From the IMG/VR virus record IMGVR_UViG_3300047562_004236, positions 1 to 23,526 of that record: 23,526 nt of DNA; one strand, 5' to 3'. This DNA is from a virus. Below are positions 788-19,825 of this stretch, piece by piece (position 1 is the stretch's first letter; each line of letters starts with the position of its first letter). Under the pieces are notes generated by a model. That model was not told the DNA's origin, did not search any database, and was given only the letters and a program-made list of their open reading frames with translations. Both the position numbers and the translations under genes were made by a program.

Positions 788-1546
788 TTAAATCACAATC
801 CAATCTTTTGGAATAATATCTTTTATACTATTGTTTCCAAACCATTTATTGGGTGAAATTATGGTAGAAGAATTGGATAACCAAGCACCCCACCAAGAAA
901 AAGAAGAATTGGAAATAATATGTCCAGAGCATAAAGTCATTAAACATAAATCTATGGCATTATTAAATGGTGATATAAAAAATCTATTGGATTGAAAGAG
1001 TTCCTGTTTTTCACACCATTTAGTGTCATCAGAAAATACAATAACTTTTTTATTATTAAAGTAAGATAATGCTTTTGTGTAATAATCAATACCTAAAAAT
1101 TCTTTTATGTTTATATAATCATTTCTTCTTATATGAAGAGATAAACAATCTTCAAATTTATTAATTATTTTTTTGCAAGGATTTATAATATTATCTTTAA
1201 ATGTAAAATCCTCTTTTATACTATTTTTAATATGCTTAAAATATTTTTCTGTTTGAAAAAAACCACCTAAATTAATATTGTCTGGACAATTGCTAAATAA
1301 CCCAGAATCAAAATAAAAATCGGTTTCCACTATAAGTGGATAATTATCTGGAACATATCCAATATATTTTAAAGATTTAAGATTAAATAATTCAAATAAC
1401 TGATGGTCGTAATATGGTTGCCTAAAATTACTTGGAGGAATACACCAATCATAATTATGTTTTGCCGCTATTCCTCTTAAAGCAGCATATTGAAACATTT
1501 GATTACCAAGTCTTCCGTGTCTACCAAGTCCATTAAATCCAATCAT
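788..1546 (-). CDS. GT11 family alpha-1,2-fucosyltransferase-like protein (inverted copy)
   Basis: This 252-aa protein carries the signature motifs of glycosyltransferase family 11: GRLGNQMFQYAALRG near residues 11-25, the GDP-fucose-binding HIRRND at 138-143, FSDD at 171-174, and NSSFSWWGAWL at 213-223. GT11 enzymes move L-fucose from GDP-fucose onto a galactose O-2 position; here the acceptor is unknown. Length fits compact bacterial and viral members. The usual HxRRGDY reads HIRRNDY, an Asn for Gly change next to the catalytic block. It is the only minus-strand gene of the glycan island, divergent from the Cys-rich gene across just 36 bp, so it needs its own promoter or antisense read-through. 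A paralogue lies at 9387-10166 on the other strand. Confidence 0.88.
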   Translation of the reverse strand: MIGFNGLGRHGRLGNQMFQYAALRGIAAKHNYDWCIPPSNFRQPYYDHQLFELFNLKSLKYIGYVPDNYPLIVETDFYFDSGLFSNCPDNINLGGFFQTEKYFKHIKNSIKEDFTFKDNIINPCKKIINKFEDCLSLHIRRNDYINIKEFLGIDYYTKALSYFNNKKVIVFSDDTKWCEKQELFQSNRFFISPFNNAIDLCLMTLCSGHIISNSSFSWWGAWLSNSSTIISPNKWFGNNSIKDIIPKDWIVI

Positions 1547-1582
1547 TAAATCATTTTAATTTACAATATATATTAGAAAATT

Positions 1583-1942
1583 ATGAGACCTTGTGGAGAA
1601 TGTACTGCATGTTGTACTTGGTTAATTGGTGATGCTTATGGGTGGGAATTTGGAAATGGAAAATCTTGTAGATTTTTATGTGAAAAGGGTTGTAGTATTC
1701 ATAAGATACGACCAGAAGCATGTCAAAAATATTTCTGTGCTTGGTCACAAGAACTCATAGATGAAGAATTTAGACCTGATAAATGTGGAGTATTAATTTC
1801 TGTAGAACAAAATGAAAATGGTCAGTATCTTAAAGCATTAAAGATAAAAGATGAAATAAATACAGATATAATAGAGTATTTACAAAAATGGAGTGAAAAA
1901 ATGAACACTCCTATTGTTTATCTTTCCAAAGTTATAGATTGA
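1583..1942 (+). CDS. YkgJ-like cysteine-cluster (Zn/Fe-chelating) protein
   Basis: A 119-aa protein whose first half is packed with cysteines: positions 4, 7, 10, 11, 29, 33, 37, 47 and 52, with His40. The order CGECTACC, then CxxxC, GCSIHKIRPEAC and YFCAW matches the YkgJ-type metal-chelating family (PF03692), whose biochemical role is poorly known. The second half is plain and acidic. In this island it precedes the RCC1-like gene by 9 nt and lies just upstream of a 2OG-Fe(II) oxygenase gene, so a role in metal supply or in modifying a surface protein is conceivable but only inferred. Start ATG at 1583 puts the first Cys motif at the very N terminus, as usual for the family. Confidence 0.75.
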   Translation: MRPCGECTACCTWLIGDAYGWEFGNGKSCRFLCEKGCSIHKIRPEACQKYFCAWSQELIDEEFRPDKCGVLISVEQNENGQYLKALKIKDEINTDIIEYLQKWSEKMNTPIVYLSKVID

Positions 1943-1951
1943 GAATTCCAA

Positions 1952-3100
1952 ATGCCAAAAGAAAATATTAATTATAGTTTTACAGAAAATGGAGTTGTCT
2001 ATGATTTTTATGATGTTTTTGTTCCTGTTGAATTGTTTAGACAACCTTCTTTGTGGGTTTGGGGTCTAGGAGATGGTGGATTAAATGCTTTAAATACTGA
2101 CACTAATAGAAGAACTACTCCAGTGACCACATTTGCTGGAGGAACAAATTGGAAACAAGTTGGCGGATCTGCAGCAATTAAAACTGATGGAACCTTATGG
2201 GTTTGGGGTGGTAATGGAGGAAGACTTGGAACAAATGATACTGCAAATAGAAATACTCCAGTTACAACATTTGCTGGTGGAAATGATTGGAAACAGGTAG
2301 ATGCTACTAATTTTTATGGTTGTATGGCAGCAGTTAAGACTGATGGAACCTTATGGGTTTGGGGTACTAATTCAAATGCACAATTAGGAACAAATGATAA
2401 TATAACAAGAAGTACACCAGTCACTACATTTGCTGGAGGAAATGATTGGAAACAAGTTAGTTTGTCTAATACTGCAGTAGCAGCAGTTAAGACTGATGGA
2501 ACCTTATGGGTTTGGGGATATAATAATGGAATTAGACTTGGAATATATGATGGACCAACCATAGTATCTACTCCAGTCACTACATTTGCTGGAGGAACGA
2601 ATTGGAAACAAGTTAGCATGTCAGATAGTGATTCCGTTAAAGGAGGTGCCGCAGTTAAAACTGATGGAACCTTATGGTGGTGGGGTCTTGTCAATTTTGT
2701 TCAACTTACAAGTACCCCAGTTACCACATTTGCTGGTGGCACAGATTGGAAACAAGTTGCACTAACCAAAGCAGTTAAGACTGATGGAACTTTATGGACT
2801 TGGGGGAATACAAATGGAACTCCTGTGGATACTACTATTGCTACACCAGTCACTACATTTGCTGGAGGAACAAATTGGAAACAAGTTGCTTTTGATGGTG
2901 TTCACCATGTAGCAGCAGTTAAGACTGATGGAACCTTATGGGTTTGGGGTGATGGAGGTGAAGGAAAACTTGGAACAAATGATACTACATCTAGAAATAC
3001 TCCAGTAACCACATTTGCTGGAGGAAATAATTGGAAACAGGTTCATACACATACCGGTACTAACACGGTTGCAATAAGATATGATAATTTTAATATATGA
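1952..3100 (+). CDS. RCC1-like seven-repeat beta-propeller protein
   Basis: This 382-aa protein has a short N-terminal segment (residues 1-33) followed by seven tandem repeats of about 40-56 residues. Each repeat follows the pattern LWxWG ... TPVTTFAGGxxWKQV ... AAVKTDGT, the typical RCC1-type blade. Seven such repeats fit one closed seven-bladed propeller. Repeat 5 is the shortest (about 40 residues), lacks the 'LGTND' loop and reads LWWWG. The final repeat ends AIRYDNFNI in place of the KTDGT strand. There is no signal peptide. RCC1-like proteins are common in marine phages, where a virion appendage or adhesin role is suspected; that function is inference. Nucleotide sequence is strikingly conserved between repeats. 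Its stop overlaps the next start (ATGA). Confidence 0.8.
   Translation: MPKENINYSFTENGVVYDFYDVFVPVELFRQPSLWVWGLGDGGLNALNTDTNRRTTPVTTFAGGTNWKQVGGSAAIKTDGTLWVWGGNGGRLGTNDTANRNTPVTTFAGGNDWKQVDATNFYGCMAAVKTDGTLWVWGTNSNAQLGTNDNITRSTPVTTFAGGNDWKQVSLSNTAVAAVKTDGTLWVWGYNNGIRLGIYDGPTIVSTPVTTFAGGTNWKQVSMSDSDSVKGGAAVKTDGTLWWWGLVNFVQLTSTPVTTFAGGTDWKQVALTKAVKTDGTLWTWGNTNGTPVDTTIATPVTTFAGGTNWKQVAFDGVHHVAAVKTDGTLWVWGDGGEGKLGTNDTTSRNTPVTTFAGGNNWKQVHTHTGTNTVAIRYDNFNI
2050..3062 (+). repeat. tandem in-frame coding repeats in the RCC1-like gene
   Basis: Six copies of a near-identical core beginning ACTGATGGAAC start at 2183, 2339, 2492, 2660, 2780 and 2924. The distances are 156, 153, 168, 120 and 144 bp, all multiples of three. 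A second conserved core, around ACATTTGCTGG followed by GGAAACA(A/G)GT, recurs once per unit. Conservation extends to third codon positions, pointing to recent duplication or gene conversion between units rather than old protein-level conservation. Confidence 0.85.
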
Positions 3101-3699
3101 ATTTTAATCATGTAGCGTTACCAAATCCTGGGGTAACGATTGGTCAACTCCCAGAAGATTTGTATGAATTAGTAATGAATGAAATAAATGAAATTTCTTT
3201 GACATTTGATAGTCATTTAAGTTATAATAGTGGTCTTGTAGGAAATATTGAAAAACAATATGAACTGAATAAGTCTATTTCAGTTTTACAACCATATTTA
3301 AATGCAATGTGCAAATCATACACATCGTATTGGAGTTTCTATCAAAAACAAGAAGATTTTAATCTTACACATTTATGGGTTAATTTTCAAAAAAAGAATG
3401 AATTCAATCCGGTTCATCATCATAGTAGCACTTTTAGTTTTGTTTGTTGGTTAAAGATTCCATATAAGATTGAAGAAGAATTAAATGCTTCTCATGTAAA
3501 AGACACAAAAGCAAAGGCAGCATCAACATTTCAATTCATTTATCCAAATATTTTAGGACAAATCACTTTAGAAACTTTATATGTAAATGCAGATTGGTGT
3601 GGTAGAATAATATTATTTCCTGCACATTTATCTCATTGCGTATATCCATTTACTACAAGTGATGATTATAGAATTTCTATTTCTGGCAATTTAGTATGA
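3097..3699 (+). CDS. putative 2OG-Fe(II) oxygenase
   Basis: A 200-aa protein with the layout of small phage 2-oxoglutarate/Fe(II)-dependent dioxygenases (TIGR02466-like). Iron ligands are probably supplied by NPVHHHS (residues 105-110, HxH) and by FPAHLSH (175-180). R192 in DDYRISISGN is the likely 2-oxoglutarate-binding arginine. This family hydroxylates proteins or small molecules; the substrate here is unknown, but a prolyl or sugar target within the surrounding decoration genes is a reasonable inference. The HxH in place of the more usual HxD at the first pair is seen in part of the family. It is coupled by 4-nt ATGA overlaps to both the RCC1-like gene upstream and the glycosyltransferase downstream, which suggests the three are made together. 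Confidence 0.75.
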   Translation: MNFNHVALPNPGVTIGQLPEDLYELVMNEINEISLTFDSHLSYNSGLVGNIEKQYELNKSISVLQPYLNAMCKSYTSYWSFYQKQEDFNLTHLWVNFQKKNEFNPVHHHSSTFSFVCWLKIPYKIEEELNASHVKDTKAKAASTFQFIYPNILGQITLETLYVNADWCGRIILFPAHLSHCVYPFTTSDDYRISISGNLV

Positions 3700-4391
3700 A
3701 AAAAATTCAAGTATTTTTAAGACATTGTTATTATTCGCATTTACAATATTCAAACAATAATCGTCCTGAATGGTGGGATAAAGAAAAAGTATTTAATAAT
3801 TTTAAAAAAACACTCAACAAAAAAACTACAGACTACACAATCATCTATGATAAACATCATGGTGAAAGAGCAGATACATTTTTAAAAGATGAAGAGAATG
3901 TTTACGAAATTGATTGTGGAAAAGAGAGTTTGAGTTTTATTGAAACATTAGATTATATTCTTACTCAAAATTTTGATGATGATACAATCATTTATTTTTT
4001 AGAAGATGATTATATTCATCGTCCAGATTGGGATAAAATTTTAATAGATGGATTTAATCTTCCAGTTGATTATGTTACCTTATATGACCATGGAGATAAG
4101 TATCAAGAAATGTATAAAGATTTTATGACTAAAGTTCTTCATACTGAATTATCTCACTGGATTCCTACTCCTTCTACCACAAATACTTTCGCTACAAAGT
4201 TTAAGACATTAAAGGAGGATTATATCATTCAAAAGAAATGGTCTGTGGGATATGAACCAAGTGCAGACCATGCAAAGTTTATTGAGTTGAGTCAAAGAAA
4301 AAGAATTTTAATTTCAGCACTTCCTGGATATTCAACGCATTGTCAAAAAGAATTTTTAGCACCTTGTATTGATTGGGTGAAATACTTATGA
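3696..4391 (+). CDS. putative GT-A-type glycosyltransferase
   Basis: A 231-aa protein with a strongly predicted catalytic acidic motif: IIYFLEDDYIHRPDW at residues 98-112, where EDD resembles the metal- and nucleotide-sugar-binding DxD of GT-A enzymes. Further features are the N-terminal strand KKIQVFLRHCYY and a late VGYEPSADHAKF block. No membrane segment is visible. I infer transfer of a sugar from a nucleotide donor, with donor and acceptor unknown. Its 3' end encodes IDWVKYL, and the DNA of this end is nearly repeated upstream of the FkbM gene at 5221-5248, suggesting rearrangement at this junction. It overlaps both neighbours by 4 nt. Confidence 0.65.
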   Translation: MKKIQVFLRHCYYSHLQYSNNNRPEWWDKEKVFNNFKKTLNKKTTDYTIIYDKHHGERADTFLKDEENVYEIDCGKESLSFIETLDYILTQNFDDDTIIYFLEDDYIHRPDWDKILIDGFNLPVDYVTLYDHGDKYQEMYKDFMTKVLHTELSHWIPTPSTTNTFATKFKTLKEDYIIQKKWSVGYEPSADHAKFIELSQRKRILISALPGYSTHCQKEFLAPCIDWVKYL

Positions 4392-5215
4392 AAATTATTT
4401 TCTGTGCAGAAAATAGAAATAATAATTGGACGGAAGATTTTTTAATAAATGAATTTTTTAATTATGAATATGTTTATGAAAAAAATTTAAATAATATAAA
4501 TTCTTATAAAGATATATTAGTATTTTCATCACCAAGGCATTCGTTTGATGATGTTTTAAATTTAGTGAAGAAAATTTCACCAAAAATTATTGTTAATCTA
4601 TCAGACGAATTTTATGGTTGGGATTTTGATAATTTTAATATTTTAGGCAATTATTGTGACATTTATATGAGGGAATATCATTATAAAAATTATAATTACA
4701 CATCAAATACCATACATATTCCTCTTGGTTATACAAATGACTTGATAAAATATAAAAAGAAAAATATCAAATCAAATGATAGAAAAATTACTTGGTCTTT
4801 GTTTACAAATCATTTGAATTATGATAGATTACAATTAATTTCTTGTTTTAAACAATTGAAAGGTGGATTTTATGGAAAAAATATGAATAAAAAAACTTTA
4901 AGTAATTTTTATTCAAATAGTGTATTTTCTCCTTGTGGAAGAGGTCATTCAAATTTAAATTGTTTTAGGTTATATGAAGCAAGTTTATTTGGTTCTATTC
5001 CTGTAGTTGTTGGAGACCCCGATGAAATAAAACAAACATTTTTTTATGAAGACAATCCTCCGTGGATTTTTTCACATTCTTGGGAAAATTCAGTAGAGTA
5101 TTGTAAATACCTACTAAATAATGCTACAGAATTGTTAAGTATTCAAGAAAAAATAGAAATTTGGTGGAGCAAAAGATTATTTGATGTTAAAGTTAAACTT
5201 AAAAATTTTTTATAA
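4388..5215 (+). CDS. exostosin-like (GT47-type) glycosyltransferase
   Basis: A 275-aa protein beginning at ATG 4388, which overlaps the preceding TGA as ATGA; a TTG start 15 nt upstream would also be in frame but is less likely. Motifs: LSDEF (71-75), HIPLGY (110-115), the nucleotide-sugar-binding type block SPCGRGHSNLNCFRLYEAS (181-199), PVVVGD (205-210) and NPPW (223-226). This is the C-terminal exostosin/GT47 pattern, in which a basic and Glu-containing region binds the donor. It is clearly paralogous to residues 1-300 of the protein at 10163-11890, sharing LSDEF, the HIP(L/I)GY motif, the 'RLYE' block and the 'ENPPW/DNPPW' turn in the same order. Role: likely glycan chain assembly. Confidence 0.75.
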   Translation: MKIIFCAENRNNNWTEDFLINEFFNYEYVYEKNLNNINSYKDILVFSSPRHSFDDVLNLVKKISPKIIVNLSDEFYGWDFDNFNILGNYCDIYMREYHYKNYNYTSNTIHIPLGYTNDLIKYKKKNIKSNDRKITWSLFTNHLNYDRLQLISCFKQLKGGFYGKNMNKKTLSNFYSNSVFSPCGRGHSNLNCFRLYEASLFGSIPVVVGDPDEIKQTFFYEDNPPWIFSHSWENSVEYCKYLLNNATELLSIQEKIEIWWSKRLFDVKVKLKNFL

Positions 5216-5242
5216 TTTTATATTGATTGGGGAAAAGTACTT

Positions 5243-6805
5243 ATGAAATTGGTACAAATTGGAGCAAACAAAGGAAATGATGATTTGGCAAAATTTCTAA
5301 AAAGGTCTAATATAGATATAGAATTTGGATTATTTGTAGAAGCAAATTCACTTCATATTCCAGAATTAACAAAATGTTATGAAAAATATCAAAATGTAAT
5401 TATTGAAAATGTTGCCATTAAAACTAAAAGTCACTTAAATAATACGTTACAATTTTTTTATCCAACAAAAGATTCTCCAGGTTATGGTATAGCTTCGTGT
5501 AAAAAAGAACACGTAGAAAAACATATTAGAGATTTATATTGGTTAAGAGGAAGTGAGATTAAAACATTTACTGTTCCTTGTATTACTATTGAAGAATTAT
5601 TTAAAAAATATAATATTATTGAATTGGATTGGTTATTATTAGATGTTGAAGGTATAGATGCTGAGTTACTTCTCACAACAGAATGGAGTAAATATAATAT
5701 AAGAAAATTTGAATTTGAAAATATACATTTTAATAATATTGAAAAAGAAAGTATTCATAAAATGTTTTCAAATTATGGATATGTAAAAACAATTTCTTTA
5801 AACCCTTTTGATGAATCATGGATTAAAAAAGAAGAGGTAAAACAAATGAATGTAACACTTTATTCAATTTGTAAAAACGAAGAGAAAAATATTGAAAAGT
5901 TTCTTGAGAACTCTAAGAAGTTTTCTCATACTATAGTAGTAGATACTGGAAGCACAGACAATACAGTTAAATTACTTAAAGAAGCAGGTATTGAGGTTTA
6001 TGAACATCCTCAAACTAAAGAAGAGTTTGATTTTTCTGTGGCAAGGAATACTGCATTATCATATGTAAAAACTGACTGGGCATTTTCATTAGACTTTAAT
6101 GAAGATGTTGATGATTTATTTTTGGATGGTTTAGATATCATTGAAAATGAGTTTACGAAATTTAATCATTTAAGATTTGATAAAACCGAGAATGATGAAT
6201 CAAAACAATCATTTGAGGTTCATACTAGATTTCATAGAACAAAAAATTATAAATGGACAAATGCTGTTCATGAAATTCCAGTTTTTATGTCTACAGAAGA
6301 ATATCCAGAAGAAGTTAATGTAGATACTACTATCAAAATCACTAAAAAAATTCATAAAACAATTTCAAAAGAACTTTTTTATCTTGATATTTGTGAGAGA
6401 GAATATAAAAAAGACCCAAGCAATTGGTATTATATTTGGTTTATTTTTAATCACTATTTTATGGTTTCTAATTATCCAAAAGCACTTGAGATGGGTCAAG
6501 AGTATTTAAATATTTCAAAGGCATATTTTGATACATTTAGAATACTTGCCTTTATTAAATGCAGTATTTGTTTAATTAAACTTAATGATGTTTCAAAAGG
6601 AGCAAATTATGCTTTTCATGCTGTTAGTGAAGCAATGAACCTAGGTGAACCATATTTGTCTCAGGCATTTATGCATTTAAATCAAATTTCAAAAATTGTA
6701 AATAATCCTAATATTACAATTTTTGCAACTGGATTTAATTCTGAAACTTTACAATCACCTGAAAGATATCAGGCAATTGATGAGTTATATCAGTCAAAAT
6801 TATGA
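5243..6805 (+). CDS. FkbM methyltransferase - GT2 glycosyltransferase fusion
   Basis: A 520-aa, two-enzyme protein. Residues 1-200 form a FkbM-type SAM methyltransferase: VQIGANKGND (4-13) for SAM binding, FVEAN (31-35), and LLLDVEG (131-137) as the late acidic strand. Residues 202-350 are a GT2 domain: ICKNEEKNIEKFL, VVDTGSTDNT (232-241) and FDFSVARNTAL (262-272). Its metal motif reads SLDFNEDVD where most relatives have LDADE, so the motif is relaxed. Residues 350-520 look helical and TPR-like. FkbM enzymes O-methylate sugars or polyketides; joined to a GT2 domain, a methylated-sugar transfer is inferred. Met202 at 5846 has a GAGGT sequence 7 nt upstream and may serve as an internal start. 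The stop overlaps the next gene by 4 nt. Confidence 0.85.
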   Translation: MKLVQIGANKGNDDLAKFLKRSNIDIEFGLFVEANSLHIPELTKCYEKYQNVIIENVAIKTKSHLNNTLQFFYPTKDSPGYGIASCKKEHVEKHIRDLYWLRGSEIKTFTVPCITIEELFKKYNIIELDWLLLDVEGIDAELLLTTEWSKYNIRKFEFENIHFNNIEKESIHKMFSNYGYVKTISLNPFDESWIKKEEVKQMNVTLYSICKNEEKNIEKFLENSKKFSHTIVVDTGSTDNTVKLLKEAGIEVYEHPQTKEEFDFSVARNTALSYVKTDWAFSLDFNEDVDDLFLDGLDIIENEFTKFNHLRFDKTENDESKQSFEVHTRFHRTKNYKWTNAVHEIPVFMSTEEYPEEVNVDTTIKITKKIHKTISKELFYLDICEREYKKDPSNWYYIWFIFNHYFMVSNYPKALEMGQEYLNISKAYFDTFRILAFIKCSICLIKLNDVSKGANYAFHAVSEAMNLGEPYLSQAFMHLNQISKIVNNPNITIFATGFNSETLQSPERYQAIDELYQSKL

Positions 6806-7161
6806 AAGTTACAGTTCCAATATCGGTAGGAGAGTTAATTGACAAGATTACGATTCTTGAAATTAAAGCAATTTTTACTGATGACAAATTTGTTCATAAA
6901 GAATTAGAGGAATTAAATAAAATTAAAAGTACTATAACTCAATATACTTTAGACTATGAAATTAAACTTAAAACAGTAAACGAAACACTTTGGAAAATTG
7001 AGGATAAAATTAGAGAGAAAGAAAAATTGCAACAGTTTGATGATGAATTTATTGAGTTGGCAAGAAGTGTTTATAAAACTAATGATGAAAGAGCAAGAAT
7101 CAAAAATAGTATAAATCAATTATGCAAATCTGAATATAAAGAGATAAAAATTTATGAATAA
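6802..7161 (+). CDS. DUF6165 family protein
   Basis: This 119-aa protein begins VTVPISVGELIDKITILEIK and continues with VNETLWKIEDKIREKE (66-81), FDDEFIELARSVYKTNDERARIKNSIN (best seen from residue 86 on). That is the pattern of DUF6165, a family regularly found beside glycosyltransferases in bacteria and phages, with no known biochemical activity. Heptad-like spacing in the middle suggests a helical coiled structure, so a scaffold or partner role for neighbouring glycan enzymes is possible but unproven. It overlaps the upstream stop by 4 nt and the downstream start by 8 nt, placing it in the middle of the coupled operon. Confidence 0.8.
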   Translation: MKVTVPISVGELIDKITILEIKAIFTDDKFVHKELEELNKIKSTITQYTLDYEIKLKTVNETLWKIEDKIREKEKLQQFDDEFIELARSVYKTNDERARIKNSINQLCKSEYKEIKIYE

Positions 7162-8131
7162 TTTTGTGAAATTGGCATTAGAAAATGGCGGAATTATTAA
7201 ACCTTTACTTATTCCACCAGAAAAACTTTCTGGACCTTCCTGTATGAATCCATCTGTCCTTGTTGTGGATGGAAAAATATTAGTAAATATTCGTAATGTA
7301 AACTATACATTATATCACTCTGAAATGAATGTTTTTGAACATACTTGGGGTCCATTAGTTTATGTTCATCCGGAAAATGACCTTCATTTAAGAACTACAA
7401 ATTATATAATGGAGATGGATGATGAGTTAAATATGATTCATCAATCAAAAATAGATACATCAAATTTTGACACGTATCAACCTCAATGGGAGTTTGTTGG
7501 ATTAGAAGATGTTCGGTTAATTGAATGGAACGGTAAAATTTATGGAATTGGTGTAAGAAGAGATTTGGATACTGTTGGAACAGGAAGAATGGAACTTTCT
7601 GAACTTGAATTTTCTCAGTCTATAGTTAAAGAAGTTTCAAGATATAGAATTCCTGGTCCACCCCCAGACAATGAATATTGTATGAAAAATTGTACTCCAA
7701 TCCAGGATAAACCTTTTACATTATTAAAATGGACAAATCCTACAGTATTAATGAAATTTTATCCTGATGGTAGAGATACTGAAGTAGTTACAACTAATGA
7801 ATATAAATCTGGATATGCTGACATGAGAGGGGGTTCTCAGGTTATTAAATATAAAAACGGTTATATTACTTTAATTCATGAAACTTATTTGTATCGTTCA
7901 GAACAAGATAGAAAAGATGGTCATTATAAACATAGATTTGTAATCTGGGACAACGAGTTTAAAGAGCAAAAATTTTCTGAACTATTTTCTTTTATGAATA
8001 TGAAAATAGAATTTTGCTGTGGAATGTCTGTTTACGGAAATGATTTTCTTATAAGTTTTGCCGTACAAGATAATGCATCATATATACTAAAAATACCACA
8101 AACTTTTATTGACAATTTTATAGGTTTATAA
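7154..8131 (+). CDS. GH130-like five-bladed propeller protein
   Basis: A 325-aa soluble protein with motifs of the GH43/GH130-type beta-propeller: GPSCMNPSVLVVDG (27-40), FVGLEDVRLIEWNGKIYGIG (114-133) as the central acidic motif, MRGGSQVIKYKNGYITLIHE, a HRFVIWD motif in the mid-250s, and EFCCGM in the high 280s. GH130 enzymes cleave beta-mannosides, mostly by phosphorolysis. Whether this protein is catalytic is uncertain, since distant members found in glycan clusters are often annotated only by fold. In context it may trim, transfer or bind sugars during glycan assembly. It overlaps the DUF6165 gene by 8 nt and is followed after 4 nt by the double FkbM gene. Confidence 0.65.
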   Translation: MNNFVKLALENGGIIKPLLIPPEKLSGPSCMNPSVLVVDGKILVNIRNVNYTLYHSEMNVFEHTWGPLVYVHPENDLHLRTTNYIMEMDDELNMIHQSKIDTSNFDTYQPQWEFVGLEDVRLIEWNGKIYGIGVRRDLDTVGTGRMELSELEFSQSIVKEVSRYRIPGPPPDNEYCMKNCTPIQDKPFTLLKWTNPTVLMKFYPDGRDTEVVTTNEYKSGYADMRGGSQVIKYKNGYITLIHETYLYRSEQDRKDGHYKHRFVIWDNEFKEQKFSELFSFMNMKIEFCCGMSVYGNDFLISFAVQDNASYILKIPQTFIDNFIGL

Positions 8132-8135
8132 AATT

Positions 8136-9377
8136 ATGCTTTTAAATTTTACCGAGTTGAAAACAAAATATAACGCAAATATAATTGGTATTATACATAT
8201 TGGAGCACATTATGGAGAAGAGATTAAAGACTATATTGACAATGGAATACAAAAACTTTTGCTATTCGAACCTCTGGAAGATAATTATAATATTCTTTTA
8301 GATAGAATTAATGGATTGAATGCTAATATAAAATTACATAAGGTTGCTCTAGGTTCAGAAATTAAAGAAGCAACTATGTATGTAAGTGATAACGAAAAGC
8401 AAAGTAGTTCGATATTGAAACCAAAAAAACATTTAACACATCATCCGGACGTATATTTTCCAGATATGGAGAATGTTGAAGTGAATATCTTAGATAATTA
8501 TGACACCTTTGAATATAATTTTATTTCAATGGATGTTCAAGGATATGAATTGGAGGTTTTGAAAGGTGCAAAAAATTCCTTAAATAGTATCGATTATGTT
8601 TATTGTGAAGTCAATAGAGATGAAGTGTATGAAAATAATGCTTTAATAGAAGAAATAGATTTATATCTATCTCAATTTGGTTTTACCAGGGTTGAAACTG
8701 ATTGGTCTGGTGGAATATGGGGAGATGCTTTTTATGTTAAAAATTTTTTAAATGATTATCAAAAATGTTTATCTAGAGTAAATTTTGATTCAAAATATTC
8801 TCTATTGTTTTTAGATGTTGGGTGTAATATTGAAGATGAAATGGATGATTTTACTGAAATGTTTTTTAAAAAATACAAAAATTCAAATTGTGTAGCAATA
8901 GAACCTGTTTTTTATAAAAAATATGAAGAAAAATGGGGTAATGATTCAAGAGTAACTCTTGTTAAAAAAGCTTTAAGTAATAACTCGTCAACTAAAATTT
9001 TATATTCACCTCCAGTTTGTAATGGATTGTCATCTTTTTATAAAAGGGATTATTTTAATGGTAATTATAATGAACTTTATATTGAATGTTTATCTTTAGA
9101 TGATTTGTCTGTCGATTTAAATATAAATTATATTGATTATCTTAAAGTTGATACGGAAGGTTCTGAATTTCCAATTTTAATGGGGAGTATTAATTTGTTA
9201 AAAAATAAAAAAATTAATTATATTCAGTTAGAATATGGTGGAACATATAAAGATGCCAATTATACTGTTTTAGATGTTATAACCTTTTTACTTTCATATA
9301 ATTATGAGTTAATTTACTATACTGGAGATTGTTATAATAATAATTCTTCTGGAGAATTATTATTTAAATGTATGTAG
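8136..9377 (+). CDS. tandem double FkbM methyltransferase
   Basis: A 413-aa protein made of two consecutive FkbM-type SAM methyltransferase domains. Domain 1: IIHIGAHYGEE (19-29), LLFEPLEDNY (42-51), FISMDVQGYELEVLKGA (129-145). Domain 2: LFLDVGCNIEDE (224-235), VAIEPVF (253-259), LKVDTEGSEFPILMG (336-350). Both keep the glycine-rich SAM loop, the acidic residue after strand 2, and the D-x-x-G strand-4 motif, so both may be active. The two halves are diverged, so this is not a very recent internal duplication. Likely role: O-methylation of sugars on the glycan made by neighbouring enzymes, possibly at two positions. A GGAG-type ribosome site precedes the following GT11 gene, separated by 9 nt. 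Confidence 0.85.
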   Translation: MLLNFTELKTKYNANIIGIIHIGAHYGEEIKDYIDNGIQKLLLFEPLEDNYNILLDRINGLNANIKLHKVALGSEIKEATMYVSDNEKQSSSILKPKKHLTHHPDVYFPDMENVEVNILDNYDTFEYNFISMDVQGYELEVLKGAKNSLNSIDYVYCEVNRDEVYENNALIEEIDLYLSQFGFTRVETDWSGGIWGDAFYVKNFLNDYQKCLSRVNFDSKYSLLFLDVGCNIEDEMDDFTEMFFKKYKNSNCVAIEPVFYKKYEEKWGNDSRVTLVKKALSNNSSTKILYSPPVCNGLSSFYKRDYFNGNYNELYIECLSLDDLSVDLNINYIDYLKVDTEGSEFPILMGSINLLKNKKINYIQLEYGGTYKDANYTVLDVITFLLSYNYELIYYTGDCYNNNSSGELLFKCM

Positions 9378-9386
9378 GAGAAAAAA

Positions 9387-10166
9387 ATGATTTCAATGAA
9401 TAAACTTGGGTCAATGGGAAGACTCGGAAACCAAATGTTCCAATACGCAGCATTAAGAAGTCTTGCGAAAAAATTTAATTATGAATACTGTTTGCCATAT
9501 TTTGAGGGAAGTTTGTGCGGAGAAGATTTAACTTTATTCGATTGTTTTGAATTGAATGGGGAGAAAAGAAGAAATACAAATTTATATGAAATTAAGTTAG
9601 ATACATTATCTTTTGATGAAAATATTTTTGATAGATGTCCAGATAATGTAGATTTGATTGGTTATTTTCAGGATTCAAAATACTTCGAAAATAATTCAGA
9701 AGACATAAAGAAATCATTCAAATTCAAAGAAATATTTTTTGATCTCGCAAAAAATTATTTTTATTCTACTTTTGGAGATGAAGAAATTATATCTTTACAT
9801 ATTAGAAGAGGTGATTATTTACAGTTTCCTCATCATATAGTTCAAGATAAAGAATATTATGAAAGAGCATTAAAATTTTTTAATAAAAATTTAAAAGTGC
9901 TGATATTTACAGATGATATTGAATGGTCTCAAAATCAAGATATATTTAAATCACAAAGATTCTTTTTTTCTACAAATAATAATAGTGCAGTTGATCTTTG
10001 TATGCAAACTTTTTGTAAATATCATATTATATCAAACTCTACTTTTAGTTGGTGGGGTGCTTGGTTATCAGATAGTAAAAAAGTAGTAAAACCTTCTGAT
10101 TGGTTTGGTTCAGAATTAAGTAATTATGAGAATTTTCTTCAAGTTGATAGTTGGATTTCTATATGA
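9387..10166 (+). CDS. GT11 family alpha-1,2-fucosyltransferase-like protein
   Basis: A 259-aa GT11 enzyme with GRLGNQMFQYAALRS (11-25), HIRRGDYL (138-145), FTDD (174-177) and NSTFSWWGAWL (217-227). The HxRRGDY motif is intact, unlike in the inverted paralogue at 788-1546. Motif spacing is nearly equal in the two proteins, so they are clear paralogues of similar length. Predicted reaction: transfer of L-fucose from GDP-fucose to a glycan hydroxyl. The ribosome site AGGAGA lies about 9 nt before the ATG, one of the better ones in the island. The stop overlaps the next ATG as ATGA at 10163. Confidence 0.9.
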   Translation: MISMNKLGSMGRLGNQMFQYAALRSLAKKFNYEYCLPYFEGSLCGEDLTLFDCFELNGEKRRNTNLYEIKLDTLSFDENIFDRCPDNVDLIGYFQDSKYFENNSEDIKKSFKFKEIFFDLAKNYFYSTFGDEEIISLHIRRGDYLQFPHHIVQDKEYYERALKFFNKNLKVLIFTDDIEWSQNQDIFKSQRFFFSTNNNSAVDLCMQTFCKYHIISNSTFSWWGAWLSDSKKVVKPSDWFGSELSNYENFLQVDSWISI

Positions 10167-11890
10167 ATGATACATTAAAAATATTGTTCTTTGGAATTTC
10201 AAATAGAGAATCAATTTGGGAATATGATTATATTCATAATGAGTTTTTTTCAGATTGGGATAACACAAATGATTATTTTTTAACACTATCTGAAGTTAAA
10301 CAAATAAACTCTAAGTTTGATGTTATTGTATATTTTTGTAGAGATCCAAATAATTATCCGTGGGGATATATACCAACTTATGAACATATTTTAGAATGTG
10401 TCCAAATTACAAATCCAAAAATAGTTATTCAATTATCTGATGAATTTATACATGAAAATCTTCAAGAGCACAATAAGTTGGCAAATTATTGTGACTTATT
10501 TTTAAGGCAATATAATCATAAAAATTATTTTTACGAAAAAAATACAACACACATACCTATTGGATATAGGAATAACTTTAACACTAAAGAAAAGTGTATT
10601 AAAAAAATTAAAGATAGAAAATATAATTGGAGTTTTTTTGGTACTTACAAGTCTGATAGAAAAGAATTAGTTGATATATTTTCCAATATTTCAAATGGAA
10701 AATATATTTTACGAGATGAAAGTTGTTCAGATTTAATATCATCAGATGAATTAGTTGATTTTTTTATTGACTCTATTTTTATTCCTTGTAGTAGAGGATG
10801 GTCAACTTTAGACACTATGAGATTATATGAATCATCTATATGTGGTGCAATACCAATTGTTGTTGGAACAAAAGAAGAAATTGAATTTGTGTTTAAGTAT
10901 GAAGAAAATCCACCTTGGTTATTTTTTGAAAGTTGGGAAGATGCTTGTAAAGAATGTTTGAATTTATTGGAAGACAAAGAGAAACTGCAAGAAATTCAAG
11001 ATAAAGTTTTACTATGGTGGGAAAATAGAATTTTTACAATAAAACAAAATATAAAAAAACATTTTATTAACAGTTATGAGCAAAATAAATTAAAAAATTT
11101 TCCTCCAGTTAACTTTATAAGTATTGAAGAATCTGAGGATAGGAGGAAAGTTTTATGTGAAAATTTTAAAAAATATGAAATTACTCGGATAACTCCTCAT
11201 ATATACAAAAAATACAATGATGATTATCATAAAATAGTTGGACGTGATGTTGATAATATGATACCAAAACATCATAGAGGTCCAGTAACATCACATTTAA
11301 AAGCAATTAAAGAGTGGTACGAATCAACAGATGAAGATTATGCGTTTTTTTGTGAGGATGATTTGAGTTTTGAGTCAATTAAATATTGGAATTTTACTTG
11401 GGAAGAATTTTTTAATAGATTGCCGAAAAACTGGCAATGTGTTCAGTTATCTTTTATTACTACACAATTACCATATATTGAATATGTAATAAAAGAATAT
11501 AATAATTTGTTTAGATATAGAGACTGGGGTGATTGGTCTTGTTGTTCTTATTTAATAAAAAGATCTCATGCAAAAAATATAGTAAATAATTATTTTAATG
11601 GTGATAAAATAATTTTAGAATATAAGGGACACGATTGGGAAAAAAGATTACAATCCCATAAAAGTTGGTCGATACCTTGTTCAGAAACAATGGTTTGCAC
11701 TTATTTTTATGAAGATACAATTTATATTATGCCACTATTTTTAGAATCTATAGATTTTTCAAGTACTTGGTCTGATGATAAATATGATAGTAGAGATAGT
11801 GTTCATAATTTTTCACATCATATAATACTAAATTGGTGGAAAAATACTGGTAAGTACTTAACTATAGATCAAATATTTGAATCAAAATAA
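10163..11890 (+). CDS. exostosin-like - GT25-like bifunctional glycosyltransferase
   Basis: A 575-aa protein starting at ATG 10163, overlapping the preceding TGA; a TTG 12 nt upstream is a less likely start. Residues 1-300 are exostosin-like, with LSDEF (91-95), HIPIGY (130-135), IPCSRGWSTLDTMRLYESS (207-225), PIVVGT (231-236) and NPPW (249-252), and are paralogous to the protein at 4388-5215. Residues 315-575 resemble family GT25 (LPS galactosyltransferase type): NFISIEESEDRR (317-328), RITPHIY, RGPVTSHLKAIKEW (372-385) and the acidic YAFFCEDDLSFE (393-404). Two sugar-transfer steps in one chain are inferred, with unknown donors. No membrane segment is visible. The next gene starts 14 nt later with a GAGGT ribosome site. 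Confidence 0.8.
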   Translation: MNDTLKILFFGISNRESIWEYDYIHNEFFSDWDNTNDYFLTLSEVKQINSKFDVIVYFCRDPNNYPWGYIPTYEHILECVQITNPKIVIQLSDEFIHENLQEHNKLANYCDLFLRQYNHKNYFYEKNTTHIPIGYRNNFNTKEKCIKKIKDRKYNWSFFGTYKSDRKELVDIFSNISNGKYILRDESCSDLISSDELVDFFIDSIFIPCSRGWSTLDTMRLYESSICGAIPIVVGTKEEIEFVFKYEENPPWLFFESWEDACKECLNLLEDKEKLQEIQDKVLLWWENRIFTIKQNIKKHFINSYEQNKLKNFPPVNFISIEESEDRRKVLCENFKKYEITRITPHIYKKYNDDYHKIVGRDVDNMIPKHHRGPVTSHLKAIKEWYESTDEDYAFFCEDDLSFESIKYWNFTWEEFFNRLPKNWQCVQLSFITTQLPYIEYVIKEYNNLFRYRDWGDWSCCSYLIKRSHAKNIVNNYFNGDKIILEYKGHDWEKRLQSHKSWSIPCSETMVCTYFYEDTIYIMPLFLESIDFSSTWSDDKYDSRDSVHNFSHHIILNWWKNTGKYLTIDQIFESK

Positions 11891-11904
11891 TTTTGAGGTA
11901 ATGT

Positions 11905-14352
11905 ATGAATGAATTGATTGATTTTTCTTTAGATACAGAAAATGGAGAAAAAAATTATAATCTGGCAAAATGGTATGAATCTCAAGGACAAACTGCAGCA
12001 GCACATACCTATTATTTAAGATGTGCCGAACGGTCTGAAAACTACCTTTTATCATATTCGGCATTAATTAGAGCGTCATTTTGTTATAAATCTCAAGGTT
12101 CAAGAGATGTTACAGAAAAAGTACTTCTTGAAAATGCTTTAATACTAATTCCAGAAAGACCGGAAGCATATTATTTTATTTCATTATTGTATGAAAAAAA
12201 ACAAGATTGGCAAAATTGTTACATCTATGCGGATTTTGGATTAAGATGTGATTTTTCTCCATTGGACTATATTCCTGAATATGGAGGAAAACATCTATTG
12301 ATTTTTCAAAAAGCAGTTGCGTCTTGGTGGTGGGGTAAAGGAATGGAATCCAGAAAATTATTTCATTCTCTTGTTGATAACCATTGGGAACTATTAGATG
12401 AAACTCATAAGAAATCTGTAGAAAGTAATATTGCAAGATTGGGTTCTGGTCCAAAATCTCAAGAATTTGTTTTTTATAAAAAAGAAAATTATTATAAGTT
12501 AAGATATAACTTTCCGGATTCTTCTTCAATAGAACATAATTATTCTCAAGTTTTTCAGGACATGTTTATTCTTTCTATGACAAATGGAAAGAAAAATGGA
12601 ACTTTTCTTGAAATAGGAGGATCAGACCCATTTAGAGGTAATAATACTGCACTTTTAGAAAAAAATTTTGATTGGAAAGGAGTTTCTATTGAATATGATA
12701 AAAAATTTATTGATAATTATACAAATAATAGAACTGCAAAATTAATACACGACAATGCATTAACAATAGATTACAATAAACTTCTTCAAGAGAATTTTAA
12801 AGATAATGTTATTGATTATCTTCAACTAGACATTGAACCAGCAAGAAATACATATGAGTGTATGCTAAAAATACCTTTTGATGAATATAAGTTCGCTGTG
12901 ATTACTTATGAACATGATTATTACATTGATATAACTAAGTCTTATCGTGATAAATCAAGAGAATTTCTTAAAAGTAAAGGTTATGTGATGATTGTAAATG
13001 ATATTTCTCCTGATGGACTTAGTAATTTTGAAGATTGGTGGGTTCATCCTGATTTAGTAGATAAAAAAATTATGAATATTATGAACGATGTATCAGATAA
13101 TATTAAAAAAGTTGATGACTATATGCTCAGTAATGATTATTATGCTGAATTTGATACTGATAAGTACTTAAGAGAAAATTTTTTTCCGGACTTTTCTTAT
13201 AAAGGAGTAATGGTTGAAGTTGGCGCAGGTCCACCGACATTCATCAGTACTTCTAAGCATTTTAGAAACAATGGATGGAGAACGATTTGTATTGAACCAA
13301 ATCCAAAGTTTGTAAAACAGCATAAAAAAGAAGGAAGTGAAGTCTATCAATATGCGTGTTCAGATGAAGAAAATAAAACTTCATTTGTAATTAACTACAA
13401 TAATGATAATTGGTATTCTCAAGAAAACGATGGAGTTAGTTACTCATCCTTAGGAATTAGATATCAAAATATTCCAGAACACAACACTCAAGAAACAATT
13501 GAGGTTAATACAATTAGACTTAATACTTTACTAGAAAAAATTAATGTAGAAAAAGTTGATATTCTTTCTATTGATGTAGAAGGATGGGAACTTGATGTAT
13601 TGATGGGATTTGATCATATTAAATATGATCCTAAAGTAATTGTTTTAGAAAACTTTGAAAATAAAGTTGAATATGAAGTTTTTATGAGTGAAAGAGGATA
13701 TTATAAAAAAACTTCTCTTGGTTATAATGAAATCTATGTGAAGATTCAAGAACAAAAATTTTTTGAAATTAATTCAAATTTACAATCAACTTCTTGGATT
13801 GTTGATAATTTTTATGAAAATCCAGATGAAATAAGAAAATTTGCATTAGAACAAGATTATGATATTGGAGGAATTGGTAGAGGATACATTGGAAATAGAA
13901 CTCATAAACAATTTTTATTTCCGGAACTCAAAGAAAAATTTGAAAATGTAATGGGTAAAAAAATTACTAAATGGGAAGAATATGGGATGAACGGTAGATT
14001 TCAATATTGTTGGTCAGGTCAACCATTGGTATATCATTGTGATAGTCAAAAATGGGGAGGAATGTTATATCTTACTCCAAATGCTCCATATCAATGTGGA
14101 ACAACTTTATATGCACATAAAAAAACCAGAGCTAGAACTTATTATGATCAAGGATGGAATTCATCATGGATAGATGTTCCTGGAGATTGTCATCTTGATG
14201 GTACACCTTTTGAACCAGTAGATGTTTTTGGGAATGTTTATAATCGTCTTGTCATATTTGATGCGAGTTGTATACATTCTGCTTCAGAATATTTTGGAAC
14301 AGTAAAAGAAAATTGTAGATTATGGCAAATGTTCTTTTTTGACGCAGATTAA
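11905..14352 (+). CDS. four-part protein: TPR-like, two FkbM methyltransferases, 2OG-Fe(II) oxygenase
   Basis: At 815 aa this is the largest product in the window. Residues 1-190 are helical and TPR-like (AKWYESQGQTAAAHTYYL, LLENALILIPERPEAYY). Residues 210-400 resemble a FkbM domain: QVFQDMFIL, GTFLEIGGSDPF (232-243), VSIEYD (260-265), YLQLDIEP (305-312). Residues 430-615 are a second, more canonical FkbM domain: MVEVGAGPPTF (436-446), ICIEPNP (461-467), ILSIDVEGWEL (553-563). Residues 625-815 are a DUF6445-like 2OG-Fe(II) oxygenase, with HCD (711-713), H791 in FDASCIHSA, and R805. In domain 1 the D-V-E-G strand is D-I-E-P, so its activity is less certain. The combined chain suggests coupled methylation and hydroxylation of a glycan or glycoprotein; this is inference. 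It is the last gene of the island. Confidence 0.8.
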   Translation: MNELIDFSLDTENGEKNYNLAKWYESQGQTAAAHTYYLRCAERSENYLLSYSALIRASFCYKSQGSRDVTEKVLLENALILIPERPEAYYFISLLYEKKQDWQNCYIYADFGLRCDFSPLDYIPEYGGKHLLIFQKAVASWWWGKGMESRKLFHSLVDNHWELLDETHKKSVESNIARLGSGPKSQEFVFYKKENYYKLRYNFPDSSSIEHNYSQVFQDMFILSMTNGKKNGTFLEIGGSDPFRGNNTALLEKNFDWKGVSIEYDKKFIDNYTNNRTAKLIHDNALTIDYNKLLQENFKDNVIDYLQLDIEPARNTYECMLKIPFDEYKFAVITYEHDYYIDITKSYRDKSREFLKSKGYVMIVNDISPDGLSNFEDWWVHPDLVDKKIMNIMNDVSDNIKKVDDYMLSNDYYAEFDTDKYLRENFFPDFSYKGVMVEVGAGPPTFISTSKHFRNNGWRTICIEPNPKFVKQHKKEGSEVYQYACSDEENKTSFVINYNNDNWYSQENDGVSYSSLGIRYQNIPEHNTQETIEVNTIRLNTLLEKINVEKVDILSIDVEGWELDVLMGFDHIKYDPKVIVLENFENKVEYEVFMSERGYYKKTSLGYNEIYVKIQEQKFFEINSNLQSTSWIVDNFYENPDEIRKFALEQDYDIGGIGRGYIGNRTHKQFLFPELKEKFENVMGKKITKWEEYGMNGRFQYCWSGQPLVYHCDSQKWGGMLYLTPNAPYQCGTTLYAHKKTRARTYYDQGWNSSWIDVPGDCHLDGTPFEPVDVFGNVYNRLVIFDASCIHSASEYFGTVKENCRLWQMFFFDAD

Positions 14353-18004: not shown

Positions 18005-19825
18005 ATGGCAAGAAGAAAAAGAACAGAACAACCAATTGGTGTTGGTCTTACTATAAGGCAGATAAAAAGAAAAAAACCAATTAGTTTAGATTATCTTATA
18101 GATATAGATCCTCTTACAGAAAATCAAAAAAAATTATTTGATTCTTATGTAGAAGGAAAAAATATAATTGCATATGGTGCTGCTGGAACAGGTAAAGCAC
18201 AACCATTATATTCCAAAATTTTAACTCCTAATGGTTGGATTACTATGGGACAAGTTAAAATTGGTGATTATGTATTAACTCCAACGGGCAAAAAAACTAA
18301 AGTTTGTGGAGTTTTTCCTCAGGGGAAAAAGCATATTTATGAGGTTGTTTTTCACGATGGTTCTAAAACCAAGTGTTGTTTAGAGCATTTATGGGAAATT
18401 AACTGCCCCAGTGGATGGAATAGAAGAAAATCTGGAACTAAAAAAATAGTTAATACTCAATATATCATTGATTTTTTGCGTGAAAAAGAAATTAGAAAAT
18501 CTTCAACTAATATCTCAATTGATTTAATTGAACCTGTTAAAACTGATGATATTAATTTGCCTTTAGATCCTTATATTGTCGGTTGTTTAATTGGTGATGG
18601 TTGTTTAACAACTTCTACTCCCAAAATAACATCAAAAGATGATGTGTTGATTTATAAATTACAAGAAATTATTGGAGAAGAATATTACATAAATCATTGC
18701 AAATCTTCTCAATATAATTATAATTTTATTGATAAATTATCTCGCAAAAATAAAGTTAACAGAATTACTGAGATCTTAAAAGAACTTGGACTACAAGGTA
18801 AAAAGTCTTATGAAAAAATTATTCCTTCAATATATGTTAATTCAGGAACAGACCAAAAACTTAATCTCATAAGAGGATTAATGGATACCGATGGAACTGT
18901 TGATTATAAAAACGGAACAGTTTCATTTTCAACAACAAGTGAAATTTTAGCAAAACAAGTTCAAGATATTATTTGGTCTTTTGGTGGAATTTGTAAAATT
19001 ACTTCTAAAATTCCAACATATACTTATGATGGAATTAAAAAAGTAGGTAGAAAATCTTATAATGTTTGGATTACTGTTAGAAATCCAAAAGAATTATTTA
19101 CTCTACAAAGAAAAAAAGACCTTTGTAGAGAAACTTACGACAAACTTCAATACCGAAGAAAAATTAAAAATGTAAATTATGTTGGAGAAGAAGAAGCACA
19201 ATGCATTATGATAGATGATGAAAATCATCTTTATGTCACTGATGATTATATTATTACGCATAATACGTTCATCACACTTTATAATGCTCTTCGTGATGTT
19301 TTAGATGAAAGAACACCATATGAAAAAATTTATATCGTAAGATCTTTAGTTCCTACAAGAGAAATTGGATTTCTTCCTGGAGATCACGATAATAAAGCAG
19401 ATATTTATCAAATTCCTTATAAGAATATGGTAAAATATATGTTTCAAATGCCAAGTGATGTTGACTTTGAGATGCTTTATGGTAATCTTAAATCTCAAGA
19501 AACAATTAAGTTTTGGAGCACTTCTTTTTTACGTGGTGTAACGATTGATAATGCTATTGTAATTGTAGATGAATTTGCTAATCTTAATTTTCACGAATTG
19601 GATTCAATTATTACTCGTGTTGGTGAAAATTGTAAGATTATGTTTTGTGGTGATGCAACTCAAAGTGATTTGGTCAAAACAAATGAAAGAAATGGAATTA
19701 TTGATTTTATGAAAATTATTAGAACTATGCCGTCTTTTGATATTATTGAATTTGGTATTAATGATATTATTAGATCTGGAATTGTAAAAGAATATCTTGT
19801 TGCCAAATTGAATAGTGGAATGTAA
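18005..19825 (+). CDS. phoH: PhoH-like P-loop ATPase interrupted by an intein
   Basis: The 606-aa precursor contains a 356-aa intein (residues 65-420), so the spliced protein would have 250 aa, typical of cyanophage PhoH. The N-extein runs to GAAGTGK (58-64) and the C-extein resumes with T421, which together restore the Walker A loop GAAGTGKT. After the intein come YEKIYIVRSLVPTREIGFLPG, the Walker B strand AIVIVDEFANLNF and GDATQSD. PhoH is a putative RNA/DNA-linked ATPase, widespread in cyanophages and named for the phosphate-starvation E. coli homologue; its role in infection is not settled. Without splicing the P-loop would be broken and ATP binding lost, so protein splicing is probably needed for function. 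The ribosome site is poor. The stop overlaps the nuclease start (TAATG). Confidence 0.95.
   Translation: MARRKRTEQPIGVGLTIRQIKRKKPISLDYLIDIDPLTENQKKLFDSYVEGKNIIAYGAAGTGKAQPLYSKILTPNGWITMGQVKIGDYVLTPTGKKTKVCGVFPQGKKHIYEVVFHDGSKTKCCLEHLWEINCPSGWNRRKSGTKKIVNTQYIIDFLREKEIRKSSTNISIDLIEPVKTDDINLPLDPYIVGCLIGDGCLTTSTPKITSKDDVLIYKLQEIIGEEYYINHCKSSQYNYNFIDKLSRKNKVNRITEILKELGLQGKKSYEKIIPSIYVNSGTDQKLNLIRGLMDTDGTVDYKNGTVSFSTTSEILAKQVQDIIWSFGGICKITSKIPTYTYDGIKKVGRKSYNVWITVRNPKELFTLQRKKDLCRETYDKLQYRRKIKNVNYVGEEEAQCIMIDDENHLYVTDDYIITHNTFITLYNALRDVLDERTPYEKIYIVRSLVPTREIGFLPGDHDNKADIYQIPYKNMVKYMFQMPSDVDFEMLYGNLKSQETIKFWSTSFLRGVTIDNAIVIVDEFANLNFHELDSIITRVGENCKIMFCGDATQSDLVKTNERNGIIDFMKIIRTMPSFDIIEFGINDIIRSGIVKEYLVAKLNSGM
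18197..19264 (+). mobile_element. class 3-type intein with LAGLIDADG homing endonuclease
   Basis: PhoH residues 65-420, from A65 (codon 18197-18199) to N420 (19262-19264). The splicing domain starts AQPLYSKILTPNGWITMGQV and ends HLYVTDDYIITHN before Thr+1. Ala at position 1 cannot act as the class 1 nucleophile. The class 3 WCT signature is complete: W130 two residues after the block B His128 (LEHLWEI), C400 in block F (AQCIMIDDE), T418 just before the terminal His-Asn. The centre holds two LAGLIDADG motifs, IVGCLIGDGCL (191-201) and LIRGLMDTDGTV (288-299), both with the catalytic Asp, so the homing endonuclease may be active. Insertion in a phage P-loop ATPase fits the proposed phage origin of class 3 inteins. 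Confidence 0.93.

Follow-up and report, generated by a model that had tools for sequence, protein, structure and literature searches.

A predicted mobile class 3 intein, with a homing endonuclease of the LAGLIDADG type, in the Walker A motif of PhoH from a probable T4-like cyanophage

The phoH gene in the 23.5 kb window (the whole stretch of DNA analysed here, a virus record of the IMG/VR type) carries a long in-frame insert in its nucleotide-binding loop, which raises the question of what this insert is and whether it serves PhoH in any way. The evidence makes it very probable that the insert is a class 3 intein, full-length and mobile, which includes a LAGLIDADG homing endonuclease and is lodged between the Walker A Lys and Thr of PhoH in a T4-like cyanophage, and that it is a selfish element, not a PhoH regulator; both splicing and DNA cutting are predicted.

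The genes surrounding phoH encode a thymidylate synthase, a small regulator, an exonuclease, a late promoter regulator, a helicase loader, a DUF1825-type protein, an ssDNA-binding protein and a baseplate wedge protein. This gene content matches that of the Synechococcus phages S-SRM01 (Kyanoviridae) and S-SKS1, and the virus is therefore most likely an uncultured T4-like cyanophage. Close to the replication genes lies a long probable surface-modification island (window 788-14352) with two family 11 glycosyltransferases (PF01531), FkbM-type methyltransferase domains in three ORFs and one family 2 glycosyltransferase. An ORF made of RCC1-like repeats (PF00415, 2.5e-19) was also observed at window 1952-3100.

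Residues 1-64 and 421-606 of the precursor matched PhoH in Pfam (PF02562, 3.4e-33) and in PHROGs (phrog_170, 1.4e-87), and the PF02562 domain with both Walker A and Walker B motifs places the protein in the PhoH family. Residues 65-420 constitute the insert, which matched Pfam LAGLIDADG_3 (1.1e-11). The features of the locus are collected in Table 1. A first-pass annotation of the window had named a set of intein residues in precursor numbering, and all of them (A65, H128, W130, C400, T418-H419-N420 and T421 at +1) were present on translation; up to N420 they correspond to A1, H64, W66, C336 and T354-H355-N356 of the intein. The same annotation had the Walker A motif split between GTGK and T, and this agrees with intein-free relatives, which read GTGK|TF without a break. 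In a scan based on the C-extein, 79 of the 80 closest additional PhoH loci were uninterrupted at this junction and one (L025) carried the intein, while in Synechococcus phage S-SRM01 the site was empty within a syntenic context. The insert is thus in frame and precisely absent from its homologues, as an intein should be.

Table 1. Features of the interrupted phoH gene, in window coordinates
Feature	Position	Strand	Basis or remark
PhoH precursor ORF	18005-19825	+	606 residues
N-extein of PhoH, 64 aa, ending in Walker A ...GAAGTGK	18005..18196	+	Empty homologues run on directly into TF
Intein assigned to class 3, 356 aa, Ala1 to Asn356	18197..19264	+	Sequence, PDB matches, model
Ala1, block A:1, without N-terminal nucleophile	18197..18199	+	Translation
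Block B core C60-C61-L-E-H64-L-W66; B:10 His, B:12 Trp; B:7 Cys replaces Thr or Asp	18374..18394	+	Alignments
First LAGLIDADG motif YIVGCLIGDGCL, D134	18572..18607	+	Translation, alignment
Second LAGLIDADG motif LNLIRGLMDTDGTV, D230/D232	18860..18901	+	Translation, Pfam, alignment
Cys336 (precursor C400), predicted block F:4 nucleophile	19202..19204	+	Invariant in 74/74 sampled viral relatives
T354-H355-N356, block G:5-G:7	19256..19264	+	Translation, alignment
C-extein of PhoH, 186 aa, starting at Walker A Thr+1	19265..19822	+	Pfam, empty homologues

Class 3 inteins and their connection with phages have been described before. The intein showed each of their sequence hallmarks: a first residue other than the Cys, Ser or Thr nucleophile (Ala1), the triad of Trp at B:12, Cys at F:4 and Thr at G:5 (W66, C336 and T354), and a Ser or Thr, rarely Cys, at +1 after His-Asn (here HN|T). 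A phmmer search against PDB sequences (E<=1) returned gp41-1 engineered to class 3/WCT (6riz, 3.8e-11), native gp41-1, the class 3 DnaB inteins of M. chimaera (6rix, 6riy) and M. smegmatis (DnaBi1, 6bs8), and one unrelated synthetase. H64, W66, C336 and the THN end aligned with the class 3 residues of the solved inteins, and this common register argues that the motifs are not a chance reading. The splicing part again matched class 3 inteins and gp41-1 when a profile of 47 relatives was searched against the PDB. The best PDB sequence matches are class 3, but class 1 gp41-1 scores too, and the comparison is one of match scores, not of descent in a tree with class 1 and class 2 outgroups.

The alternative would be class 2 splicing, in which Thr+1 attacks the N-terminal junction directly. 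Class 2 inteins likewise lack a nucleophile at position 1, as Ala1 would allow. Two published points count against the preferred reading: the class 3 signature alone does not exclude the class 2 route (PMC5222942), and a class 3-type intein without the F:4 Cys failed to splice (PMC3196547). The class 2 intein KlbA, however, gave no match at E<=1 by phmmer or profile search of the PDB and was not in the Foldseek top 50, and the class 2 assignment was rejected on the WCT triad and on the best solved matches, which are class 3 or engineered to class 3. Moreover, the F:4 Cys is invariant among the viral (74/74) and bacterial (80/80) relatives sampled. Splicing by the class 2 route is accordingly a very remote prospect, and the class 3 (WCT) assignment of the first-pass annotation is supported, with the splicing chemistry itself predicted from the sequence.

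An AF2 model of the intein, built on an alignment of 47 relatives, reached a mean pLDDT of 93.4 and a pTM of 0.91. Foldseek searches with the model found PI-SceI as the best overall match, and recovered PI-SceI-type bifunctional inteins together with class 3 DnaB inteins, the latter with 30-36% identity over the splicing part. The middle part of the 47-relative profile matched PI-SceI, PI-PfuI and I-DmoI. Both LAGLIDADG motifs keep their Asp residues, as had been noted from the letters (D134 in 'GCLIGDG', D230/D232 in 'GLMDTDG'), so that two acidic motifs, the LAGLIDADG_3 match and PI-SceI- and I-DmoI-like folds are found together. Over 28 pairs, the median dN/dS was 0.255 in the endonuclease part and 0.142 in the splicing part, which supports an intact endonuclease under purifying selection. 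In one copy, 98% identical to the intein (L003:2501-3566), the frame is shifted within the endonuclease region, where there is a run rich in A, through either decay or sequencing error.

This broken frame, along with a published pseudogene of a related class 3-type intein (PMC3196547), would fit a reading in which the insert is decayed and non-splicing and the gene a dead PhoH. In the window, however, the reading frame is open, purifying selection acts on intein and C-extein alike, and the catalytic residues are all kept in full-length relatives of the same clade. A dead PhoH is therefore hardly credible, and an active intein is the preferred reading.

Eleven more IMG/VR loci (L002-L011 and L025) have this insert at the identical position in PhoH, and of these L002, L003 and L011 may come from the same or a very near virus. 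An intein-based scan recovered ten loci at this site with 76-100% identity and, in addition, L012, a copy with 42% identity whose host is a ClpB-like ATPase. The divergence of intein and host gene did not run in parallel. In coding DNA, the intein dS was 0.47 against 1.41 for the C-extein in the pair L004/L005, and 0.30 against 1.10 in L007/L008, whereas the pair L006/L009 showed the reverse (0.43 against 0.11); dS is high in some pairs, so that single values are rough. Homing combined with replacement would give discord both ways, and the two directions seen fit this expectation. Since the intein is less diverged than the extein in some pairs and more diverged in another, it is probably mobile, as the first-pass annotation had proposed; the empty sites in nearly all of the closest loci and the purifying selection on the endonuclease are in line with this.

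Relatives of the intein were sought more widely by a codon scan for GTGK-AQP in viral contigs; together with added phage loci, this yielded at least 74 distinct inteins, a sample and not a total. The AQP start, the preceding GK and the HN[STC] end were selection criteria, so that A1, Q2, P3 and GK are conserved by design in this set, which a search pattern with GTGK also biases towards hosts such as PhoH. Among the 74 viral inteins, the F:4 Cys and the B:10 His were present in all, the B:12 Trp in 69 and the G:5 Thr in 72, with Thr or Ser at +1. Class 3-type inteins in four clamp-loader-like hosts (L116, L184, L201 and L210) keep the block F Cys and THN and have Asn instead of Trp at B:12. By profile, PhoH was the host of 35 of the 74, five of these 35 being checked with Pfam; only the first-round profile set was used, because later iterations drew in terminase, helicases, clamp loaders and thus other P-loop proteins. 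The other viral hosts included DnaB/gp41, TerL, SF1 and SF2 helicases, clamp loader, ClpB, SbcC-like gp46 and AAA ATPase, names that are working labels taken from Pfam hits, record annotations or the look of the sequence. One of the five hosts checked with Pfam is the PhoH (1.7e-30) of an isolated phage, Vibrio phage 1.161.O (L014, MG592529.1, AUR91592.1), whose P-loop is split by a class 3 intein. In bacteria, 80 loci were found through the block F/G pattern alone, and intein starts were then also sought after GK: all 80 had the F:4 Cys, about 75 of the inteins started directly after the Walker A GK, and T or S followed the insert in nearly all. Judged from these sequences, the class 3 lineage of the window intein occupies the GK|T/S junction of the P-loop in many unrelated NTPases.

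A tree built from 61 full-length inteins placed that of the window in a clade of ten PhoH copies (support 100/99). The PhoH host label changed 11 times over this tree, at least 4 of the changes being forced by well-supported branches. A vertical lineage confined to PhoH was rejected, a single PhoH clade having an AU p of 5.5e-93. The shared site could instead reflect independent insertions of long-separated class 3 inteins, with no hopping of one lineage between hosts, and the tree does have long deep branches and many open nodes. Nevertheless, the inteins share an AQPL start and one alignable endonuclease, PhoH as one clade is rejected, and an intein in PhoH (L180) pairs with one in an SF1-type helicase (L187) at a support of 100/100, which together leave independent insertion improbable. 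A bolder reading is that a single class 3 lineage has specialised on the P-loop Lys|Thr/Ser junction, with an endonuclease that tolerates Walker A codons and hops across non-homologous NTPases (PhoH, DnaB, TerL, SF1 and SF2 helicases, clamp loader, ClpB, SbcC-like gp46 and AAA). It would have a main reservoir in phage PhoH, and its block B would mostly be CxxH, not TxxH or DxxH. We give this proposal an even chance of being right.

The first-pass annotation had also suggested that splicing could gate PhoH activity. As a hypothetical conditional switch, the intein would be kept because splicing in the P-loop makes PhoH activity depend on the cell's redox, metal or energy status during infection. 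The insert parts the Walker A Lys from the Thr, so that precursor PhoH should be inactive; oxidation and zinc inhibit M. smegmatis DnaBi1, which is likewise a P-loop intein of class 3 (PMC6195587, PMC7360933); and a Cys pair at B:6-B:7 (window 18374-18394) sits beside the active site. In the phmmer alignment, Asp62 of DnaBi1 (DxxH) falls on Cys61 of the window intein, which thereby departs from mycobacterial class 3 inteins, reported to have Asp here. This B:7 Cys occurred in 34/35 viral PhoH inteins, 17/39 other viral and 61/80 bacterial inteins of the samples, and most inteins of the lineage have CxxH in place of DxxH or TxxH. On the other side, the partner Cys48 of DnaBi1 aligns with Ile47, and the DnaBi1 redox switch is therefore not conserved in the window intein; a switch of this type was rejected. 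Mobility explains the presence of the intein, which 79 of 80 close relatives do without, and no support for gating beyond the P-loop position was found in this analysis. Gating of PhoH is thus unlikely, and the selfish element remains the preferred reading.

For such an element, splicing, DNA cutting and any effect on the phage can be predicted as follows. Cys336 (F:4) would attack the Lys-Ala1 peptide bond to give a branched intermediate, the N-extein would be transferred to Thr+1, and cyclisation of Asn356 would release the exteins to join and restore GTGKT, so that only spliced PhoH can have a P-loop. In a mixed infection, the endonuclease would cut intein-free phoH at the conserved P-loop codons, and repair of the cut gene would copy the intein in (homing); the signs of mobility and the dN/dS values speak indirectly for such cutting. 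The intein lineage at GK|T/S junctions has probably passed between PhoH and other host proteins on more than one occasion.

Phage diversity is surveyed with phoH as a marker (PMC4476143, PMC6351560), and a 1 kb insert in its P-loop consequently matters to primer surveys and to annotation. The PhoH of Vibrio phage 1.161.O illustrates the hazard, being labelled, together with its intein, merely as 'hedgehog/hint domain protein'. For intein biology, this set of loci provides numerous natural examples of empty and of filled sites, distinguishes two sites in PhoH and shows a clear conflict between intein and host-gene histories, which makes the specificity of an endonuclease for a near-universal ATPase motif directly testable. 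The commonness of CxxH in class 3 block B further implies that structural statements derived from mycobacterial DxxH are not general.

The first-pass annotation had regarded a class 3 intein in PhoH as undescribed, and a claim to the first such intein does not stand: class 3 inteins from PhoH of M. fortuitum (OBK00716) and M. xenopi (EID13626) have been aligned (PMC6195587, Fig. 6a), and an intein has been counted in M. smegmatis PhoH (PMC7360933). Among 297 Actinomycetes genomes sampled, all 17 intein-bearing PhoH loci fetched had the insert at MRGR|TLNDAF, just before Walker B; these inteins are class 3-type (L311-L327 in part, L335), and the GTGKT P-loop was intact wherever readable. The P-loop site of viral PhoH is therefore probably distinct from the published one, i.e. 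a second PhoH site. No description of a P-loop intein in viral PhoH was found in the literature searched, which covered few subscription journals; the type of element is known, but neither its location in phage PhoH nor its hopping from one unrelated ATPase to another seems to have been reported.

Among known systems, the mycobacterial PhoH inteins (OBK00716, EID13626; PMC6195587) likewise represent class 3 in a PhoH-family protein, though probably at a different site, as judged from the sampled actinobacterial loci and not from these two entries themselves. Msm DnaBi1, Mch DnaB1 and Mle DnaB (6bs8, 6rix, 6riy) share the class 3 triad, Ala1, P-loop insertion (in DnaB for DnaBi1; PMC6195587) and Hint fold with the window intein, but are mini-inteins, whereas the window intein has an endonuclease and resides in PhoH. 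The Msm and Mle inteins further have Ser+1 (PMC5222942) in place of Thr+1, and DnaBi1 has DxxH in place of CxxH in block B. Mycobacteriophage TerL1-a and the helicase, DnaB and TerL inteins of jumbo phages (PMC5050341; PhiPA3, EL) are phage LAGLIDADG inteins in other host proteins; phage inteins such as those of PhiPA3 and EL are 35-43% identical to the window intein over the full length, and TerL1-a has the same 'classic' K|T P-loop insertion (PMC5050341). PI-SceI (1lwt, 1vde), finally, is a bifunctional LAGLIDADG intein like that of the window, from which it differs in being class 1 and in its host, yeast VMA1.
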